Shown: positions 1,173-9,212 of the stretch, in pieces
Numbering within the stretch: the stretch's first letter is position 1
Layout: each line of letters starts with the position of its first letter
DNA from: Chloroflexota bacterium
Lineage (GTDB): Bacteria > Chloroflexota > Anaerolineae > Anaerolineales > Villigracilaceae
Reading direction: 5' to 3'
DNA length: 64,000 nt
NCBI GenBank assembly: GCA_019873655.1
Contig: JAIOAU010000006.1
Span: 62,001-126,000 of the forward strand
The notes under the pieces: model-generated
Told to the model about the DNA's origin: nothing
The model's input: only the letters and a program-made list of their open reading frames with translations
Database searches by the model: none
Program-made: the position numbers and the translations under genes

Positions 1173-1871
1173 TCATTCGACGGCTTGTAATTTGCGCTGT
1201 TCGACGATTTCGGCCAGGCGTCCCAGGCGGATGCGATGCCAGAGCAGGGTGATGAAAATGACCGAGAAGGCGCCTAGGGCGAAGAACATGGTGTGGAGCA
1301 TGGCCGGGGACATGGCAAAGCCGCCCTGCGCCTGGGCGCTGGCCGTGCCGATGATGGCGGGGTGGATGGTCTGCCAGAGGCGGATGGAGAGGAAGGTGAC
1401 CGGGACGCTGAGTCCGCCGATGAGGGTGTAAACAGCCCCGAAGCGGGCGCGTCGCTCGGGGTCTTCGATGCCCTGGCGCAGGAGGAGGTAGGCCAGGTAG
1501 ATCATCTCGAGGATGGCGGCGGTGGTCAGGCGGGCGTCCCAGGTCCACCAGGTTCCCCAGGAGGGCTTGGCCCAGATCGAGCCGGTGACGATGGCCACCA
1601 GGAAGAAGACCAGGCTGATTTCGACGGCGGCCACTTCAACGATGTCCCACTTCAAATTTTTTGTGATCAGGAACGCGATTCCCGCCGCGGCGGCGGCGAG
1701 GAATCCGAGCATACCCACCCAGGCGGTGGAGATGTGGATGTAGAAGACTTTTTGGACGTAATTCATCGTCGCTTCCAGCGGCGCGTAGAAGAAGATGACG
1801 GCCAGCGCCGCCAGAAAGAGGAGGGTCGAGAGAGCCGTCAAAAGGGAAAGCAGTTTGGGTCGAGGTTCCAT
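1173..1871 (-). CDS. ccmC: Heme exporter membrane protein CcmC
   Basis: This 232-residue protein has six predicted membrane helices. It carries the family's tryptophan-rich periplasmic signature WGTWWTWDARLT (residues about 105-116) and histidines in the flanking loops (about residues 46 and 170). CcmC binds heme through these elements and presents it to CcmE at the outer face of the membrane. Length and topology match the family. It follows ccmB by 36 bp and precedes ccmD by 12 bp, in the order A-B-C-D. The C-terminal helix ends in a basic and glutamate-rich cytoplasmic tail. Confidence 0.95.
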   Translation of the reverse strand: MEPRPKLLSLLTALSTLLFLAALAVIFFYAPLEATMNYVQKVFYIHISTAWVGMLGFLAAAAAGIAFLITKNLKWDIVEVAAVEISLVFFLVAIVTGSIWAKPSWGTWWTWDARLTTAAILEMIYLAYLLLRQGIEDPERRARFGAVYTLIGGLSVPVTFLSIRLWQTIHPAIIGTASAQAQGGFAMSPAMLHTMFFALGAFSVIFITLLWHRIRLGRLAEIVEQRKLQAVE

Positions 1872-1907: not shown

Positions 1908-2621
1908 CTATTCTTCGACAATGGCGTCGAAGAGCATGTAAGCCACAGCCAGGAAAATGGCATCGTAGCCAATCAGCAAGTTCAGCCAGGGGCGGATTTG
2001 TTCGAAAGGGGCGGCCTGCAAGAATCCGCCGCTGGCCCGCACGGCGGCCAGCAGGAGCGGCACGATGACCGGGAAGAGCAGGATGGGCAGGAGGATGTCC
2101 CGCGTGCGGGCCTGGACGGCCATGCTGGCCAGGAGCGTGCCGACGGCGACGTAGCCGAGCGAGCCGAGCAGGATGACCAGCAACAGGCCGGGATGAAAAA
2201 GGTTGAGGTTGTATAGCACGCTATAAAGCGGCAGGATGATGACCGCGACGAGTAGCATGAAGACCCAATTGGCCAGCATCTTGCCGAAGAAGATGGCCGA
2301 CCGATCCACCGGGGCAAGCAGGAGGCCATCCAGGCAGCCGCGGTCTTTTTCGACCGCCATCGAGCGATTCAGGCCGAGAGTGCCGGCAAAAGCCAGTGTG
2401 ACCCACAGGACGCCGGGGGTGATGGTCGGCCGCAGGTCGGGGGCCAGTTCGATGGCGAAGTTGAAGATGAGGATGACCAACAGGGCAAAGACCAGCATGG
2501 CCGAGAGCAGTTCGCGCGAGCGCACTTCGGCCGCCAGGTCTTTCCACAGCACGGCCAGGACGGCGCGAGCAAAACTCGACCGGGAAGGCGGTGAAGACGG
2601 CACTCGGCGGCTGGGGGTCAT
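1908..2621 (-). CDS. ccmB: Heme exporter ABC permease CcmB
   Basis: This 237-residue protein has about six membrane helices and begins with a basic, Ser/Pro-rich cytoplasmic leader. CcmB is the permease partner of the CcmA ATPase. The CcmABCD complex uses ATP to release heme-loaded CcmE rather than to transport heme itself. The region RSRELLSAMLVFALLVILIF (about residues 34-53) and the EKDRGCLDGLLLAPVDR segment are typical of the family, the latter being the loop that contacts the ATPase. Its start overlaps the ccmA stop by 4 bp (ATGA), which implies translational coupling of the two subunits. Confidence 0.94.
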   Translation of the reverse strand: MTPSRRVPSSPPSRSSFARAVLAVLWKDLAAEVRSRELLSAMLVFALLVILIFNFAIELAPDLRPTITPGVLWVTLAFAGTLGLNRSMAVEKDRGCLDGLLLAPVDRSAIFFGKMLANWVFMLLVAVIILPLYSVLYNLNLFHPGLLLVILLGSLGYVAVGTLLASMAVQARTRDILLPILLFPVIVPLLLAAVRASGGFLQAAPFEQIRPWLNLLIGYDAIFLAVAYMLFDAIVEE

Positions 2622-3313
2622 TTCGCCAACGTCTCCCGGTAGAAGTCGAGCAGATTGCCGCGCAATTCCTGGCGGTGAGCAGAGGCGCGCAGCAGGCCGC
2701 CGGTCAGGATGTCGAAGCGGGAGGCCAGGTCTTCGACGCGCGCCAGGTCGTGGGAGGTCATCACCACGGTGCGGCCGCGGGCGGCGACCTGATCCAGCAG
2801 GCGGTCGAGCATGTCGCAGGCCTCCTGGTCGAGGCCGGTGTGCGGTTCGTCCAGGAGCAGGATGTCCGGGTCATGCAGGATGGCGCGTCCGATTGCCAGG
2901 CGCTGTTGCATGCCGCGCGAGAAGGTGCGCACCAGGTCGCGGCGGCGGGAGGCCAGACCGACCAGGTCGAGGACTTCTTCGATGCGGTCGGCGGGGCGCG
3001 GCAGGTTGTACAAGCGGGCGTAGAAGCGCAGGTTCTCTTCGGCGGTCAGGTCGCCGTAGAGGAGCGGCTGGTGAGTGACGACGCCCAGGCGGGCGCGCAC
3101 GGCGGCGGCCTGCGCGGGCAGGCGGCAGCCGGCCAGGACGACCTCGCCCAGCGAGGGGCGGGTGAGCGAGGCCAGGATGCGCAGGAAGGTGGTCTTGCCG
3201 GCCCCGTTGGGGCCGAGGATGGCGACGAATTCGCCCGCCTGGACGTCGAAATCCAAACCGCGCAGGACGGTTTTGAGGCCGAAGCGTTTGACGAGTTTGC
3301 GGACGCGAATCAT
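2618..3313 (-). CDS. ccmA: Heme exporter ATPase CcmA
   Basis: This 231-residue ABC ATPase has a Walker A motif GPNGAGKT at residues 34-41, a signature loop of the form FSRGMQQR, a Walker B ILLLDEP, and a switch histidine in MTSHD. It lies between the diheme lipoprotein gene (12 bp upstream) and ccmB, which it overlaps by 4 bp. CcmA energises the CcmABCD complex that frees holo-CcmE. The signature is SRGM rather than the general LSGGQ, which is common in CcmA and other exporters of this group. The call is firm because of the ccmB and ccmC genes immediately downstream. Confidence 0.94.
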   Translation of the reverse strand: MIRVRKLVKRFGLKTVLRGLDFDVQAGEFVAILGPNGAGKTTFLRILASLTRPSLGEVVLAGCRLPAQAAAVRARLGVVTHQPLLYGDLTAEENLRFYARLYNLPRPADRIEEVLDLVGLASRRRDLVRTFSRGMQQRLAIGRAILHDPDILLLDEPHTGLDQEACDMLDRLLDQVAARGRTVVMTSHDLARVEDLASRFDILTGGLLRASAHRQELRGNLLDFYRETLAK

Positions 3314-3324
3314 ACGGCGCGGGG

Positions 3325-5139
3325 TCAGAGCAGGTCTTTGAGGCGTTCTTTGAGGGCGCGGCGGCGCGCCCGGTAGGCGTTTTCGGAGATGCCGCCGGCG
3401 CGATACTGGTCATCGAGGGCGATGATGGCGTCCATGAGGGCCTGCGGGTCGTCCCCCAGGGCGTCTTCGGCGGTTTCTTCGTCTGTCTCTTCCTCTTGCC
3501 GGGCGCGGTCGCGCAGGAAGAGATAAATTCCGGCGGCGAGGAAGGCGGTTCCGAGGGCGGCCATGCCAATCAGCAGACCGCTTTGCTCGCCCAGCCCCAG
3601 CAGGCCGGTCTGGCCGGGCTGACCGGTGATGGTCAGGTCGAACGGCTCGCCAGCGGCCAGCGAAGCGGCCTCGTAGATGCGGTATTCAGCGCCCTGCATG
3701 CTGCTGACGCCGCGGTCGCTCAGCCGGTCGCTGCGCACTTTGACTCCGGGCGGGACGAAGAGGTCCAGCGTCTCGACTGGCAGGAGGAAGGCGTGATCCC
3801 ACTCCAGGCGGCGCTCGTAGGGCAGGGAGAACCTGGCGGCGATGCCGTATTGCAGGCTTTCGCCGGGCAGGATGGCGAAGCCGTTCGTCGCCGGATAGAG
3901 CGGGGCGCTGCCTTCGGTCAACTCGAAGGTGACGGCTGAACCGGCCTCGGCGGGGATGCGGATGAAGGGGATGCTGGCGCCGTCGGTCTCGACGGTGACG
4001 GTTACATTGCTGGGATTGGTGAAGATGTAAATTTCATAGACCCGAATCAGGCCGCGGGTGGAGAAATCCAGGACGGTATGCACCTGCTGGAAGCGCAGCA
4101 GGCTGAAGTCGGCGGTCGATTCGTAGATGGTGACGGGCAGGTCGAATTCGGAGGAGAGGCCGTCGTAGAAAGCGGCCGCCGAGACGTAGGTCACGCCGCC
4201 GTACTCGACCGTGACCAGGTAAGCGCCGTCCGGCATGGGCGGGACGCCGCTGAAGAGGAAAGCGCCGTCGGCGGTGGTCAGCGTCATCTGGCGGCCAGTT
4301 TCCTGAGAGGCGTCGTAGATGCGCAGGGTGACGGGCAAACCGGCGGGCGCGGAGGCGCCCCCGCCGTGGACGACCCGTCCGCGGATGACGACGCCGGTCT
4401 CCTCGACCGGGGCGGCGGTCGGTTCGGCCGTCTCGGCCGGGGCCTCGGCGGCGGGGGTCGGCGAGGGGACGGGTTCGGCCAGGGGCGAGAGGTCGAAGGC
4501 CAGGGTGCGCAGGTAGAGGATCAGGGTTTGAATCTGCGCTTCGGAGAGTTGGCCGCCGAAGGCCGGCATGGCGTTGGGAATGCCCTCAGCGATGACGCGC
4601 CGCAGGGCGACGCCGCTGGAATCGGCCAGTTGGGCCGGGTCGCGGAAATCGGGGGCCGAGACCCCGTGACATTCGGCGCAGTTTTGGGCGAAGAGGGCTT
4701 GCGCCTCGGACAACTGCTCCGCTGTGGCTCCCAGGGTGTAGACGTAGGCCAGCACGTCCCAGCGTTCTTGTTCGCTCAGGGACTGGAAGGAGGGCATGCC
4801 GCGTTCGGCGCGTCCCAGCGTGACGACGCGGTACCATTCGGCCGGGGCGCGCTGGCTGGCGACTTCGGCCAGGCCGATGGCCGGGACGGCGACCGGCATT
4901 TGCGCCGCTTGCGGGCCGTTTCCCAGGCCGCGCTCGCCGTGGCAGGCGAGGCAGTTTTGGGCGTAAACGACAGCGCCGCGCGCCGGCGAGGGCGGCGCGG
5001 CCGGGGCCGAGAGAGTAAGAGTCGGCGCGGGAGTCGGGGAGCGGTAGCCGGGCGGAGGGGTGATGTCTTCGGAGAGGCTGAAGGTGCAGCTGCCCAGCGC
5101 CAGGCCGGTGAGCAGGAGGAGCAGGAGACGGAATTTCAT
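3325..5139 (-). CDS. Diheme c-type cytochrome lipoprotein with regulatory-like and membrane domains
   Basis: I start it at 5139, where the translation begins with a lipoprotein signal peptide and lipobox ending at Cys18. The same frame is open for 25 more codons upstream, but these lie inside the preceding gene. The protein is 604 residues. Two class I cytochrome c domains follow, with heme sites CLACH (Cys63) and CAECH (Cys154). Next come a Pro/Ala/Thr linker, a carboxypeptidase-regulatory-like beta domain (about 270-365), further beta-rich sequence, one membrane helix near 540-560 and a cytoplasmic acidic helix. The tail contains LDDQYRAGGISENAYRARR, the same motif found in the neighbouring CcmI-like protein. 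It overlaps that gene by 4 bp and sits inside the ccm operon, so it is probably matured by it. Its electron-transfer partner is unknown. Confidence 0.85.
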   Translation of the reverse strand: MKFRLLLLLLTGLALGSCTFSLSEDITPPPGYRSPTPAPTLTLSAPAAPPSPARGAVVYAQNCLACHGERGLGNGPQAAQMPVAVPAIGLAEVASQRAPAEWYRVVTLGRAERGMPSFQSLSEQERWDVLAYVYTLGATAEQLSEAQALFAQNCAECHGVSAPDFRDPAQLADSSGVALRRVIAEGIPNAMPAFGGQLSEAQIQTLILYLRTLAFDLSPLAEPVPSPTPAAEAPAETAEPTAAPVEETGVVIRGRVVHGGGASAPAGLPVTLRIYDASQETGRQMTLTTADGAFLFSGVPPMPDGAYLVTVEYGGVTYVSAAAFYDGLSSEFDLPVTIYESTADFSLLRFQQVHTVLDFSTRGLIRVYEIYIFTNPSNVTVTVETDGASIPFIRIPAEAGSAVTFELTEGSAPLYPATNGFAILPGESLQYGIAARFSLPYERRLEWDHAFLLPVETLDLFVPPGVKVRSDRLSDRGVSSMQGAEYRIYEAASLAAGEPFDLTITGQPGQTGLLGLGEQSGLLIGMAALGTAFLAAGIYLFLRDRARQEEETDEETAEDALGDDPQALMDAIIALDDQYRAGGISENAYRARRRALKERLKDLL

Positions 5140-5594
5140 GGGGCTGGTCTGTCTTTCAGGTTGTGGCCGCAGGAGGGGCAGAACTTGTCCGAGCGCAGCA
5201 CCGGCTTGCCGCAATGGGGGCAGAAGCCGCCGGTCTTTTCGCGGCGCGCCTGGCGACGCTTGGCGATCAGGGCCTCGATGTCTTCGTCGGAGAGGCGGCG
5301 CTTGCGGGCGGGCGGACGGGGCTTCCTTTCGTCCAGGCGGCGCAGAACCTCGGCGCCGCGCTGGACCAGCCGCGCCCGTTCGGCGGCGTAGTCGGCCTCG
5401 GGGATTTTACCGAGGGCGTAGTCGAAATCCAGTTCCTGCAAGGCGGTCAGGAGGCGCTCGCGTTCGGCCAGCAGGGCGGCCTCGTCCGGCGGCGCGGCCT
5501 GGGGTTCGAGGACGGGGCGGACGAGCGGCCGCCCGACGAACAGTACGACGAGGGCCAGGACAGCCAGGAGCAGGAGGACGGCGGCCAGTTCCAT
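5136..5594 (-). CDS. CcmI-like membrane protein with C-terminal zinc ribbon
   Basis: This 152-residue protein has one membrane helix (residues about 3-25). A predicted coil follows, containing LQELDFDYALGKIPEADY, the pattern seen in the N-terminal part of CcmI-type proteins, where CcmI assists delivery of apocytochrome. The C-terminus holds a four-cysteine zinc ribbon, CPHCGK...CPSCG (about 124-143). Position strengthens the assignment: it begins 1 bp after ccmG and ends overlapping the diheme lipoprotein start by 4 bp. Canonical CcmI carries TPR repeats in place of the zinc ribbon, so this is a divergent or reduced form. With the helix at the N-terminus, the ribbon would be cytoplasmic. Confidence 0.72.
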   Translation of the reverse strand: MELAAVLLLLAVLALVVLFVGRPLVRPVLEPQAAPPDEAALLAERERLLTALQELDFDYALGKIPEADYAAERARLVQRGAEVLRRLDERKPRPPARKRRLSDEDIEALIAKRRQARREKTGGFCPHCGKPVLRSDKFCPSCGHNLKDRPAP

Positions 5595-6184: not shown

Positions 6185-6667
6185 TCATCTGCGTTTGCGG
6201 AGTTCTTCTTCCAGACGGGCGGCATATTCGTCCGCCGCGGGAACGGGCGGCGGCTGGACGGCGGTCTGCCGGGCTTTTCGCTGCCAGTCGCGGAGGCCGC
6301 GCCCCAGCAGGAAGAGGCCGGTCAGGAAGGCCAGCGGCGGGACGATGTAGAAGATCCAGTTGATTCCCTGACGCGGCGGTTCGGCCAGGACGCGCGCCCC
6401 GTAGTTGTCCACGAAAAATTGGATGATTTCGTCCTCGCTCTTGCCCTCGGCCAGCATCTGGCGGATGAGTTCGCGCCACTGACGGCAGGCCTCGGTGGGG
6501 CAGACGTCGAGGGGGGTGTTTTCGCACACCGGGCAGAAGAGTTGGCGGGCGATGGCGTTGACCTCGTCGTCGGAGGGGGTGGCCTGTTGGGCAAGCGCCG
6601 GCAGGGGGAACAGCGAGCCGAGGACGAGGAGGGCGACCAAGGCGAAAAGGAGACGTTTCTCTTTCAT
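6185..6667 (-). CDS. ccmH: Cytochrome c biogenesis protein CcmH
   Basis: The start at 6667 overlaps the ccmF stop by 4 bp and gives 160 residues: a signal peptide ending near ALAQQ, then a three-helix redox domain with LFCPVC (Cys45, Cys48). A membrane helix follows at about 105-125, then a cytoplasmic tail. CcmH presents apocytochrome to CcmF and cycles its CxxC with CcmG. A second cysteine pair (DVCPTEAC) follows the redox motif. Proteobacterial CcmH usually lacks this extra pair, which may form a structural disulfide. The sequence QMLAEGKSEDEIIQFFVDNYG is strongly family-typical. Confidence 0.94.
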   Translation of the reverse strand: MKEKRLLFALVALLVLGSLFPLPALAQQATPSDDEVNAIARQLFCPVCENTPLDVCPTEACRQWRELIRQMLAEGKSEDEIIQFFVDNYGARVLAEPPRQGINWIFYIVPPLAFLTGLFLLGRGLRDWQRKARQTAVQPPPVPAADEYAARLEEELRKRR

Positions 6668-8676
6668 GGGGTCTGGCTTTCCTTTGGAGGCCAGGCGGTC
6701 AGAATCATGCCGCCGATGAAGAGCAGACTGCCGATCCACAGCCAGTTGACCAGCGGGTTGTGGTAGACCTTGAAGGGGGTCTGGGCGGTCGAGACGTTCT
6801 CCCAGTTGACCAGCACCACGTACAGGTCGTCGGCCAGGGTGCTGTAGACGCCGGGGATGGTCATCGGCTGGCCGTCGGGGTAGAGGTCGTAGCGCGGGGC
6901 CAGGCGAGCGAGGAAGACGCCGTCTTTGAAGACGCTCAACTCGGCGCGGGTCACGCGGCGGCCGTCGGTGTGCGGGAATTGGGCCAGCGAGTCGTAGCGC
7001 AGGGTGTAGCCGCCCAGTTGAATCTCTTCGCCGATGGACAGGCTGCGCTGGGTCTCGGTCTGGAACAGTTCGATGCCCAGGATGCCGATGGCCATGACGA
7101 CCATGGCGATGTGGATGAGGTAGCCGCCGTAGCGGCGGCGGTTGCGGGCGAAGAGGCGTCCCAGCGCCTGGAAGGGGGTCTCGCGATTGGCTTTCATGCG
7201 GGCGCGCACGCCGCGCCCGTACTCGTAGAGGCTGACGGCCAGCACGAAGACGACCAGCGTGAAACCGATGAGCGCGATGAGATTGCGGATGCCCAGCAGC
7301 GCCAGGACGGGCGGGGTGAGCAAGGCCGGGATGGCCGGTTTCCACAGGGCGCGGCCCAGGCTGCGGGCGTCGGTGTAACTCCAGGCCGAGAGCGGGGCGA
7401 CGCCCATCAAGAGCATCAACAGGCCGAGCAGGGGCGCGGTGGCGCGCTCGTACCACGGCGGCCCGAAGGTGATTTTCTCGTTGGTCACGATTTCATACAC
7501 CAGCGGCGAGAAGACGCCATAAGCGACGATGAAGAAGACGCTCAGGAAGACGACCGCCGCCAGCAGGAAGAGCGCCTCGCGCGACAAGAGCCGCTCGAGG
7601 ACGATCTCGTCCCGCAGGAGGGGCCAGCGCCGAATCAGCAAGGCAAAGGAGACGATGACGGTCAGGGCGATGAAGCCGAAGAACATCGGGCCGATGGCGC
7701 TCTGGGCGAAGGCATGCACCGAGGACAGGACGCCGGAGCGGGTCAGGAAGGTGCCGACGATGACCATCACGTAGGTGAGGATGATGAGTGCCATGTTGAA
7801 GTGTTTGAAAATGCCGCGCTTTTCCTGGATGATGGCGGTGTGCAGGAAGGGCGTGCCGATCAGCCAGGGCATGAGGGCGGCGTTTTCGACCGGGTCCCAG
7901 CCCCAGTAGCCGCCCCAGCCGAGCACGTCGTAGGCCCAGCGCATGCCCAGCACCAGGCCGAGGGAGAGGAACAGCCAGGCGGTCAACGTCCAGCGGCGGG
8001 TGACGCGAATCCAGCGGTCATCGCTGCGGCCGGTGATGAGGGCGGCCATGGCGAAGGCGTAGGGGATGACGAAGGCGACGAAGCCCAGGTAGAGCATCGG
8101 CGGATGGAGAATCATGCCGGGGTGGCGCAGGAGCGGGTTCAGGCCGCGGCCGTCGGGAGGGAAGGCGGCCGCGCCGCCGGCGGGCCGGAACATCGCTCCG
8201 ACGGCGTCGCCGTTGGGCAGCAGCCACCAGCGCTCGAAGGGGTTTTCGAAGAAAATGCTCAAGGAGAGGAAGAAGGCCAGGGTGACGGCCGTCACCACGA
8301 TGACCCAGGGCAGGAATTCGCGCTCCCCTTTCCAATCGCGCAGACTGACGGCGCTGACGAAGGCCGAGAGCAGCCATGACCAGAAGAGCAGCGAGCCGGC
8401 TTGTCCGCCCCACAGAGCGGTGATCTTGAGATAGAGCGGCATGGCGTCGCTGGTCACCGAGTAGACGTATTTCACTTCGTAATGACCGGTGACGAGCAGA
8501 TAGATCAGCGCGCCGACCGCCAGGCTGAGGAGCGGAAAGGTCAGCAGAATCGCCCGGCGGGCGCTTTCCACCCAGGCCGCGCGTTGCCTCTGCGCGCCGT
8601 ACATCGCCGCCCCGATGGCAAACAGCGCCAGCAAAAATGAGAGAACCAGGACGCCAAAACCGAAATCAATGAGCAT
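6664..8676 (-). CDS. ccmF: Cytochrome c heme lyase subunit CcmF
   Basis: This 670-residue membrane protein has about 15 helices, near the usual family length. It contains the two tryptophan-rich signatures, WGGQAGSLLFWSW (about residue 90) and WGGYWGWDPVENAALMPWL (about 250), which form the extracytoplasmic heme-handling WWD region. CcmF attaches heme from CcmE to the CxxCH motif of apocytochrome and works with CcmH. A large soluble loop near the C-terminus is followed by a final helix. It starts 56 bp after ccmE and overlaps ccmH by 4 bp. The preceding small gap holds no second promoter that I can see. Confidence 0.96.
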   Translation of the reverse strand: MLIDFGFGVLVLSFLLALFAIGAAMYGAQRQRAAWVESARRAILLTFPLLSLAVGALIYLLVTGHYEVKYVYSVTSDAMPLYLKITALWGGQAGSLLFWSWLLSAFVSAVSLRDWKGEREFLPWVIVVTAVTLAFFLSLSIFFENPFERWWLLPNGDAVGAMFRPAGGAAAFPPDGRGLNPLLRHPGMILHPPMLYLGFVAFVIPYAFAMAALITGRSDDRWIRVTRRWTLTAWLFLSLGLVLGMRWAYDVLGWGGYWGWDPVENAALMPWLIGTPFLHTAIIQEKRGIFKHFNMALIILTYVMVIVGTFLTRSGVLSSVHAFAQSAIGPMFFGFIALTVIVSFALLIRRWPLLRDEIVLERLLSREALFLLAAVVFLSVFFIVAYGVFSPLVYEIVTNEKITFGPPWYERATAPLLGLLMLLMGVAPLSAWSYTDARSLGRALWKPAIPALLTPPVLALLGIRNLIALIGFTLVVFVLAVSLYEYGRGVRARMKANRETPFQALGRLFARNRRRYGGYLIHIAMVVMAIGILGIELFQTETQRSLSIGEEIQLGGYTLRYDSLAQFPHTDGRRVTRAELSVFKDGVFLARLAPRYDLYPDGQPMTIPGVYSTLADDLYVVLVNWENVSTAQTPFKVYHNPLVNWLWIGSLLFIGGMILTAWPPKESQTP

Positions 8677-8732: not shown

Positions 8733-9212
8733 CTACTCGTTGCCGGCTTGCCCGGGGAGCGATTCCTCGTAGCGGGTCGGGCATTTCAATAGCACTTCAT
8801 CGGCGTAGAAAATCCCGTCTTCGCCGAGGCGGCCGGTGACGATGGCCTGGGCCTCGTTCTGCAGCAGGTCGGGGCGCGGACCGACGTACACGACAGTGAG
8901 CCGCGGCCGGGTCGGGTCGAGCACGGCCTGATGCAAGACCTCGGCCAGCCCGCCCTGGGCTTCGATCGCGGCGTTGTCGCCGGGGATGTCGGCGATGTCG
9001 AAGCGCAGGCTCAAGGTCTCGGCGTCGTATTGGATTGTATCACCGATGACCGCCCCGGAGACGCGCAGGTTGCGCCCGACGGCTTGCTCTCCCTGCTCGC
9101 GCACCTGCCGGACGGTGAGAAAATACTCGGCGTTCGATTGCGTGGCGCTGACGATGAGATAGATGACGGCCGCCAGGATGATCAGCCCGCCGACCAGGAA
9201 TTTCGGACGCAT
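8733..9212 (-). CDS. ccmE: Heme chaperone CcmE, CxxxY variant
   Basis: This 159-residue protein has one N-terminal membrane anchor (about 5-25) followed by an OB-fold heme-chaperone domain (GRNLRVSGAV, LTVVYVGPRPDLL, EAQAIVTGRL). In most bacteria the heme is bound covalently by a histidine in an HxxxY motif. Here the aligned site reads KCPTRYEE, so Cys144 replaces the histidine and Tyr148 is retained. CxxxY-type CcmE proteins are known from archaea and some sulfate reducers. It is the first gene of the operon, with GGAGG spaced correctly before ATG 9212. The C-terminal tail is short, ending soon after the motif. Confidence 0.93.
   Translation of the reverse strand: MRPKFLVGGLIILAAVIYLIVSATQSNAEYFLTVRQVREQGEQAVGRNLRVSGAVIGDTIQYDAETLSLRFDIADIPGDNAAIEAQGGLAEVLHQAVLDPTRPRLTVVYVGPRPDLLQNEAQAIVTGRLGEDGIFYADEVLLKCPTRYEESLPGQAGNE

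Follow-up and report, generated by a model that had tools for sequence, protein, structure and literature searches.

In System I of cytochrome c maturation, CcmI takes part in heme ligation alongside CcmF and CcmH (PMC3884852). According to a 2023 review (PMC10663686), it is unknown what reduces the transmembrane heme of CcmF, and for archaea the question is raised in PMC9084895 whether unrelated proteins replaced the missing CcmD, CcmH and CcmI. Both the delivery of the apocytochrome to CcmF and the reductant of the heme there are open questions. Here we describe two adjacent genes, P1 and P2, in the ccm operon of a 64,000-nucleotide stretch of Chloroflexota DNA (contig JAIOAU010000006.1, positions 62,001 to 126,000; this whole stretch is called the window). 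With a probability of about 0.5, they code for subunits that this lineage has added to the CcmF heme-lyase module of its System I and that jointly do the job of CcmI. This reading draws on the anatomy and conservation of the two proteins, the operon order, the similarity of their hairpins, and their persistence beside CcmF in loci from which other Ccm genes or the cytochrome part of P2 are missing.

The stop codon of P1 and the start codon of P2 overlap as ATGA, and the features of both proteins are as follows.

5136-5594, minus strand: P1, 152 residues, with a transmembrane helix, a CcmI-like hairpin and a C4 zinc ribbon
5325-5489, minus strand: hairpin of P1, residues 36-90
5367-5432, minus strand: motif of P1, LDFDYALGKIPEADYAAERARL, residues 55-76, fitting the originally predicted pattern
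5169-5222, minus strand: zinc ribbon of P1, Cys125-Cys142 (PF13240, E = 1.8e-8)
3325-5139, minus strand: P2, 604 residues, a lipoprotein with two cytochrome c domains, an Ig-like and a beta ectodomain, a transmembrane helix and a cytoplasmic hairpin
5086-5088, minus strand: lipobox Cys18 of P2, a Cys in 43 of 46 aligned rows
4939-4953, minus strand: first heme motif of P2, CLACH, residues 63-67, kept in 43 of 43 rows with residues there
4666-4680, minus strand: second heme motif of P2, CAECH, residues 154-158, degenerate in many relatives
3331-3447, minus strand: cytoplasmic hairpin of P2, two helices, residues 565-603
3352-3417, minus strand: motif of P2, LDDQYRAGGISENAYRARRRAL, residues 575-596, fitting the same pattern

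In both proteins the motif forms a hairpin of two helices that closely follows a transmembrane helix on the inner side of the membrane. The structural model of P1 (m19d70de0f057; mean predicted local distance difference test score, pLDDT, 88) has its one transmembrane helix at residues 2-25, followed by the hairpin helices 36-60 and 66-90 and the zinc-ribbon end; an N-terminal transmembrane helix leading into a cytoplasmic helical segment is also what characterises the beginning of CcmI. The P1 hairpin is predicted to be cytoplasmic from the charges that follow the transmembrane helix. A Foldseek comparison of the model with known structures gave no match at E <= 0.001. Amongst the relatives of P1, R73 and L76 are kept in 45/45 rows, and all four cysteines of the zinc ribbon in 44/44 or 44/45. 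The model of P2 (m2745d5d7c7e1, mean pLDDT 86.7; model residue n corresponds to P2 residue n+1) likewise has one transmembrane helix, close to its C-terminus, and in the hairpin behind it L575, R593 and L596 are found in 51/51 rows, D576 in 50/51 and Y589 in 49/51. With a mean entropy of 1.69-1.87, this hairpin varies less than the beta domain (1.96-2.46 in most blocks) and more than the first cytochrome domain in those relatives that have one (1.26-1.42 in its best blocks). A protein encoded outside ccm (locus L276, 6527-8086, minus strand) combines a propeller-like ectodomain with a transmembrane helix, a hairpin and a zinc ribbon that resemble the end of P1, so that ends of the P1 type occur beyond ccm too.

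It had been predicted originally that both proteins carry the pattern LDxxYxxGxIxExxYxAxRxxL, and the pattern does fit both. In the named loci, however, which are the 80 kept of 455 from a search with patterns from close relatives that also covered other phyla, and all of which bear Chloroflexota-type names, the exact pattern is present in none of 78 P2 and in only two of 76 P1 sequences and is therefore over-fitted. A looser form, L[DE]-x12/13-[YFH]-x3-R-x2-L near the end of the protein, occurs in 76 of these 78 P2, and the form L[DE]-x12-[YF]-x3-R-x2-L in 74 of the 76 P1, a few P1 rows in this count extending beyond the stop codon. Alignment of the profile of 38 P2 tails with that of 36 P1 segments by hhalign resulted in a score of 44.2 (E = 7.6e-11), compared to a maximum of 16.1 for 200 shuffles of the columns and of 12.9 for 34 CcmF/CcmH windows. 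In the genome of the window, the P2-tail profile finds P2 (1.6e-18) and P1 (4e-4) and next nothing under 0.51, and a P2 core profile that includes the transmembrane helix finds at E <= 0.001 P2, P1 (1.3e-7) and no other place. Sequence comparison thus confirms that the hairpins of P1 and P2 are related beyond chance.

The search for the motif with the P2-tail profile across 61 genomes (E <= 0.01) gave a result that is largely, and not entirely, in favour of a tie to the ccm genes: 94 of 100 matches are P1 or P2 (60 P2, 34 P1), the assignment having been made manually on the basis of position and the length of the frame; 15 loci were read individually, and 8 of these belong to the 100. The other six matches are tails of other proteins. 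For comparison, six SHOCT-like tails that all come from a single kind of membrane protein were used, the names PH-like and SHOCT-like being assigned by eye.

The window contains the following ccm genes around P1 and P2; the names of ccmG and ccmF were assigned by us from the appearance of the sequences and are presumptive.

8733-9212, minus strand: ccmE, named from its sequence
6664-8676, minus strand: presumed ccmF, in equal order in homologous loci
6185-6667, minus strand: ccmH, with a PF03918 match in the search of its own genome
5596-6225, minus strand: presumed ccmG, from operon order
2618-3313, minus strand: ccmA, adjoining P2
1908-2621, minus strand: ccmB, from sequence and operon order
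1173-1871, minus strand: ccmC, from sequence and operon order

The location of P1 and P2 between ccmG and ccmA is thereby borne out, on the minus strand. The view that they form an unusual insertion into the core of the operon has to be given up, as ccmE-F-H-G-P1-P2-A-B-C is the usual order in Anaerolineales. Amongst the named loci with room for the neighbouring gene, P1 lies directly upstream of P2 in 76/77, with L168 as the exception, and ccmA directly downstream of P2 in 76/76; the order P1-P2-ccmA was also found in most of the loci looked at in the phylum. A fusion of the P1 and P2 genes, suspected from the end of a reading frame in L164, was rejected, a stop codon separating the two. The CcmE of the window carries CPTRY, with a Cys at the position of the classical heme-binding His, and a Cys-type CcmE is described in PMC3601427. 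Upstream of ccmE lies a further gene, P3 (9521-10417, minus strand), which codes for a protein with a signal peptide, a beta ectodomain, a transmembrane helix and a zinc ribbon; relatives of P3 are found upstream of ccmE in some other loci too, where they at times adjoin an ABC ATPase.

With respect to its distribution, the P2 core profile (E <= 0.001) has matches in 118 of the 150 genomes sampled from the class Anaerolineae and in 104 of 201 from the Chloroflexota; the 4 genomes of the class and the 9 of the phylum without a match better than 1e-15 may hold P1 alone. The N-terminal part of the window P2 is a c-type cytochrome (PF13442, E = 3.4e-26) with two CXXCH stretches and an axial Met in each of MPSF and MPAF, and its fold matches comprise cytochromes c6 and c552 as well as a subunit of alternative complex III. 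A classification as CcoP was not reached (TIGR00782, 54 bits with a cut-off of 179.95), and there is a weak CarboxypepD_reg match. The homologues of P2 were found by way of the beta domain and the transmembrane helix, and the 129 rows obtained merged into 114 distinct ones. In 8 of these 114 the cytochrome is absent, not counting L071, which lacks it and is cut by the end of its contig; the absences fall on at least two branches of the tree, probably on three. Of the 22 reading frames shown from outside the class, none contains CXXCH, and 18 are encoded beside ccm genes.

The cytochrome is therefore an addition to P2. This also bears on the explanation that P2 is a respiratory electron carrier, i.e., a diheme cytochrome anchored in the membrane, which shares no more than its transcription with the ccm genes. 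The intact ligands of both cytochrome c domains in the window P2, the fold matches and the fact that the first cytochrome domain, where present, is the best conserved part of the protein would fit such a carrier; in view of the homologues that do without the cytochrome, most of the outside-class ones still beside ccm genes, and of a hairpin better conserved than the beta domain, we consider it very unlikely. In view of the same homologues, the original description of P2 as an electron carrier does not hold in essence, and its tail is more aptly regarded as belonging to a Ccm subunit with an optional carrier fusion.

Unexpectedly, 37 of the 114 rows have lost the heme His of the second cytochrome domain and kept both Cys (as CXXC in 36 and as C-x3-C in L164; examples are L137, L139, L144, L155, L174 and L025, at the equivalent of 4666-4680 in the window). 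The His is replaced by A in 12 rows, S in 7, P in 6, G in 5, E in 2, and D, I, T, V and Q in one each. The axial Met of this domain is present in none of the 37, in contrast to 57 of 67 rows with CXXCH. All but one of these rows (36/37) belong to one clade of the tree, which includes one CXXCH row, L165 standing separate. Retention of the cysteine pair after the loss of both heme ligands suggests, at the level of sequence, a heme-free cytochrome domain with a dithiol or disulfide function. A loss of the first heme in L204 (9998-11884) was rejected, as the reading frame seems to slip locally in this region while both flanks are intact, probably owing to an error in the sequence.

Which protein the hairpins might bind can be narrowed down by loci that lack Ccm genes. 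In L052 to L055 and L322, CcmF, CcmG, CcmH, P1 and P2 occur without CcmA, CcmB, CcmC and CcmE in the fetched stretch, which for L055 is a 4.9-kb contig. Clusters of this kind are plausible, since an engineered holocytochrome synthase of CcmF and CcmH that works without CcmABCDE is cited in PMC8975832. In the CcmF tree, L052 to L055 branch together with L323 and L324, and L322 lies outside this group. In these second clusters P2 lacks the cytochrome; by eye, Rieske-type proteins were seen near the cluster of L052 and a metal ATPase near that of L053. A dedicated lyase of the NrfEFG type in L052 to L054 was rejected, as no C..C[HK] was found in the listed open reading frames of at least 80 residues, clients possibly lying elsewhere. 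In turn, both hairpins are present in five loci without CcmH (L267, L273, L307, L308 and L320), where the absence of CcmH from L267 and L273 was judged at the locus and not in the whole genome, and where the P1 hairpin of L307, L308 and L320 is a variant matched by the P1 model alone. Taken together, the clusters without CcmABCE and the loci without CcmH leave CcmF as the constant companion of P1 and P2. The partner of the hairpins that is indicated thereby is either CcmF or the respective other member of the pair. Of the original idea that both hairpins bind one common partner, the relatedness and conservation of the hairpins and their tie to the ccm operon have thus held, with gene content pointing to a partner inside the CcmF module; a single partner as such is not supported, mutual pairing of P1 and P2 fitting equally well.

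A short P1 with a transmembrane helix and a zinc ribbon and without the hairpin was found in the CcmH-less loci L268, L278, L298, L300, L301 and L309 to L317, and in the 22 CcmH-less loci in which P1 is short or was not found, the P2 hairpin has been lost in 12 loci and kept in 10. Co-occurrence was tabulated for 86 of 89 loci, the remaining three (L281, L304 and L332) being dropped as P1 lies off the fetched stretch or at a contig end; in the order both, first only, second only and neither, the counts are 55/4/5/22 for CcmH and the P1 hairpin (Fisher's exact test, 5e-12) and 57/3/10/16 for the P1 and P2 hairpins (3e-8). In these tables L285 was set by hand to its operon copy of P2, which lacks the hairpin, a second copy with a visible hairpin being set aside; in L275, also set by hand, the hairpin was seen by eye and missed by the model, and the scoring of L277 and L289 as positive for P1 rests on weak matches. 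In pairings drawn at random from the tree, the direction is the same in nearly all cases for both tables with the P1 hairpin, and mixed for CcmH and the P2 hairpin. Co-occurrence of CcmH and the two hairpins is suggestive, not proof.

Several observations weigh against P1 and P2 as a CcmI-like pair in the CcmF module. The association between CcmH and the P2 hairpin is weak (52/7/15/12; 0.0015), and the tree allows for only 3 to 7 independent pairs, none of them significant. Ten loci hold the P2 hairpin without a P1 hairpin, and L286 has P1 and CcmH and no P2 hairpin. There are also P2 genes without ccm genes nearby (L262, L269, L287, apart from a CcmG-like match, and L288). In addition, P1 has no second transmembrane helix followed by a periplasmic tetratricopeptide repeat (TPR) domain as in CcmI, and the P2 tails score 39.2 with the six SHOCT-like tails, near the 44.2 obtained with P1. 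A strict dependence of the hairpins on CcmH was rejected in view of the five CcmH-less loci with both hairpins, the weak table for CcmH and P2 and the small number of tree pairs.

Part of these data also bears on the possible, if somewhat less probable, explanation that the two hairpins pair with each other and so join P1 to P2 instead of binding one third protein. In favour of mutual pairing are the adjacent and translationally overlapping genes, the relatedness of the hairpins, their correlated presence in the 86 loci and the 12 CcmH-less loci in which both are missing. It is at odds with the ten loci in which the P2 hairpin has been kept next to a short, hairpin-less P1, and the correlation itself comes from few independent events without significant tree pairs.

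On sequence grounds, the hairpin of P1 and P2 is one form of a loose kind of hairpin shared with SHOCT, GvpG and CcmI and is not unique to cytochrome maturation. The originally named objection, i.e., the occurrence of the motif in unrelated SHOCT-type tails, is thus half borne out, because the P2 tails match the six SHOCT-like tails almost as well as they match P1. Of 28 P2 ends, 16 have a GvpG match and 5 a SHOCT match in Pfam at E <= 0.01, and SHOCT domains, according to PMC3581485, are without a settled function and did not behave as oligomerisation domains in the test of its authors. These points would suit generic SHOCT-type tails which act locally or close to the membrane, which P1 and P2 obtained independently and which have no specific link to cytochrome maturation. 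Such an origin is nevertheless unlikely given the 94 of 100 hand-classified matches that are P1 or P2, the Y...R of the ccm hairpins where the six SHOCT-like tails have F...K, the poor score of P1 against those tails (19.0), CcmI being the best NCBIfam match of P1, and the lack of any match to SHOCT (PF09851) in the window's genome, including P2 of the window. GvpG (PF05120) scores 19.1 bits on the full-length window P2 and 22.4 bits on its C-terminal part, with a cut-off of 30.6.

The likeness to CcmI is itself below threshold. TIGR03142, which models the N-terminal part of CcmI, matches residues 10-79 of the window P1 with 12.1 bits (E = 0.18) and reaches 14.5 bits with residues 1-100 alone, the curated cut-off being 29.3, and none of 121 relatives lies above this cut-off. 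Of the P1 segments, 15/21 match at E <= 0.1, the best at 3.8e-5. Below the cut-off there are 29 rows with E <= 0.01, of which, judged by position, 18 coincide with P1, four with the transmembrane-plus-hairpin end of P2 (G101, G108, G022 and G089, at least two of which run past the P2 stop codon), and seven lie elsewhere or are unchecked. TPR families were found neither amongst the nine Pfam families of P2 nor amongst the best 25 of 36 for P1, the search being confined to these two proteins and not aimed at a TPR protein encoded at another place of the genome.

Returning to P1 and P2 as subunits of the CcmF module, we infer physical binding, apocytochrome handling and a redox role for them as follows. 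P1, by way of its transmembrane helix, hairpin and zinc ribbon, would account for the portion in the membrane and the cytoplasm, like the N-terminal part of CcmI. P2 would supply the extracytoplasmic part, its beta ectodomain holding the apocytochrome or presenting it to CcmF, and would stay with the lyase through a transmembrane helix and a hairpin of its own. Both hairpins might attach to the CcmF complex from the cytoplasmic side or to one another, and the cytochrome fused to P2 in Anaerolineae might be an added redox arm which passes electrons to or from the heme at the lyase. A more far-reaching scenario, which we regard with considerable doubt, assumes that the Chloroflexota swapped CcmI for a hairpin-paired two-protein CcmF module, that the Anaerolineae fused a client cytochrome to it as a reductant arm, and that the heme-free CXXC domain of one clade mimics the apocytochrome or relays thiols to CcmG and CcmH.

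A different pair in the place of CcmI over a large part of a phylum, one member being fused to a cytochrome, would make both apocytochrome delivery and heme reduction at CcmF testable, and the CcmABCE-less clusters together with the CcmH-less operons reduce the range of possible minimal lyases to CcmF plus P1 and P2. Amongst the publications listed, none was found on P1 or P2, on ccm in connection with Anaerolinea or on CcmI with a zinc ribbon, in a search for which the subscription literature was mostly outside reach.

Compared to known systems, the beta domain of P2 (residues 343-510) resembles amongst solved structures chains of the oligosaccharyltransferase (OST) complex, which we take to be ribophorin I/OST1, and the N-terminal domain of M1 aminopeptidases, with Z scores of 8.9-11.1. 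In four OST rows the Z score is 10.4-11.1 with a root-mean-square deviation (rmsd) of 3.5-4.0 over 146-156 residues, and in the other OST rows the rmsd is 5.8-12.4. Ribophorin I, too, is built of an ectodomain, a single transmembrane helix and an end in the cytosol, and it handles substrate polypeptides. The likeness of the beta domains is one of fold alone, at 6-15% identity, and this handling of substrates may serve as a hint to the role of P2, not as evidence. With SHOCT (PF09851) the hairpins share a length of about 30 residues, the two helices and, in P2, the C-terminal position, but the hairpin of P1 is internal, and Y and R take the place of F and K in the six SHOCT-like tails. GvpG (PF05120) offers a helix pair of like kind that matches more than half of the P2 ends examined (16/28), P2 of the window itself staying under the gathering cut-off. 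The CcmE of the window, with its CPTRY, recalls System I* and its Cys-type CcmE, from which the window differs in having CcmH and CcmG. With the N-terminal part of CcmI (CycH), P1 shares a transmembrane helix followed by a cytoplasmic segment, a gene that adjoins ccmF/ccmH and, together with some P2 ends, matches to TIGR03142 below the threshold. In contrast to CcmI, P1 has a zinc ribbon instead of the second transmembrane helix and the TPR domain, P2 has a beta ectodomain, and the proposed job is divided over two proteins which both stay under the curated cut-off. We therefore do not class P1 and P2 as CcmI and propose that they work together like CcmI, in what is likely a Chloroflexota form of System I with the P1-P2 pair in the place of CcmI.

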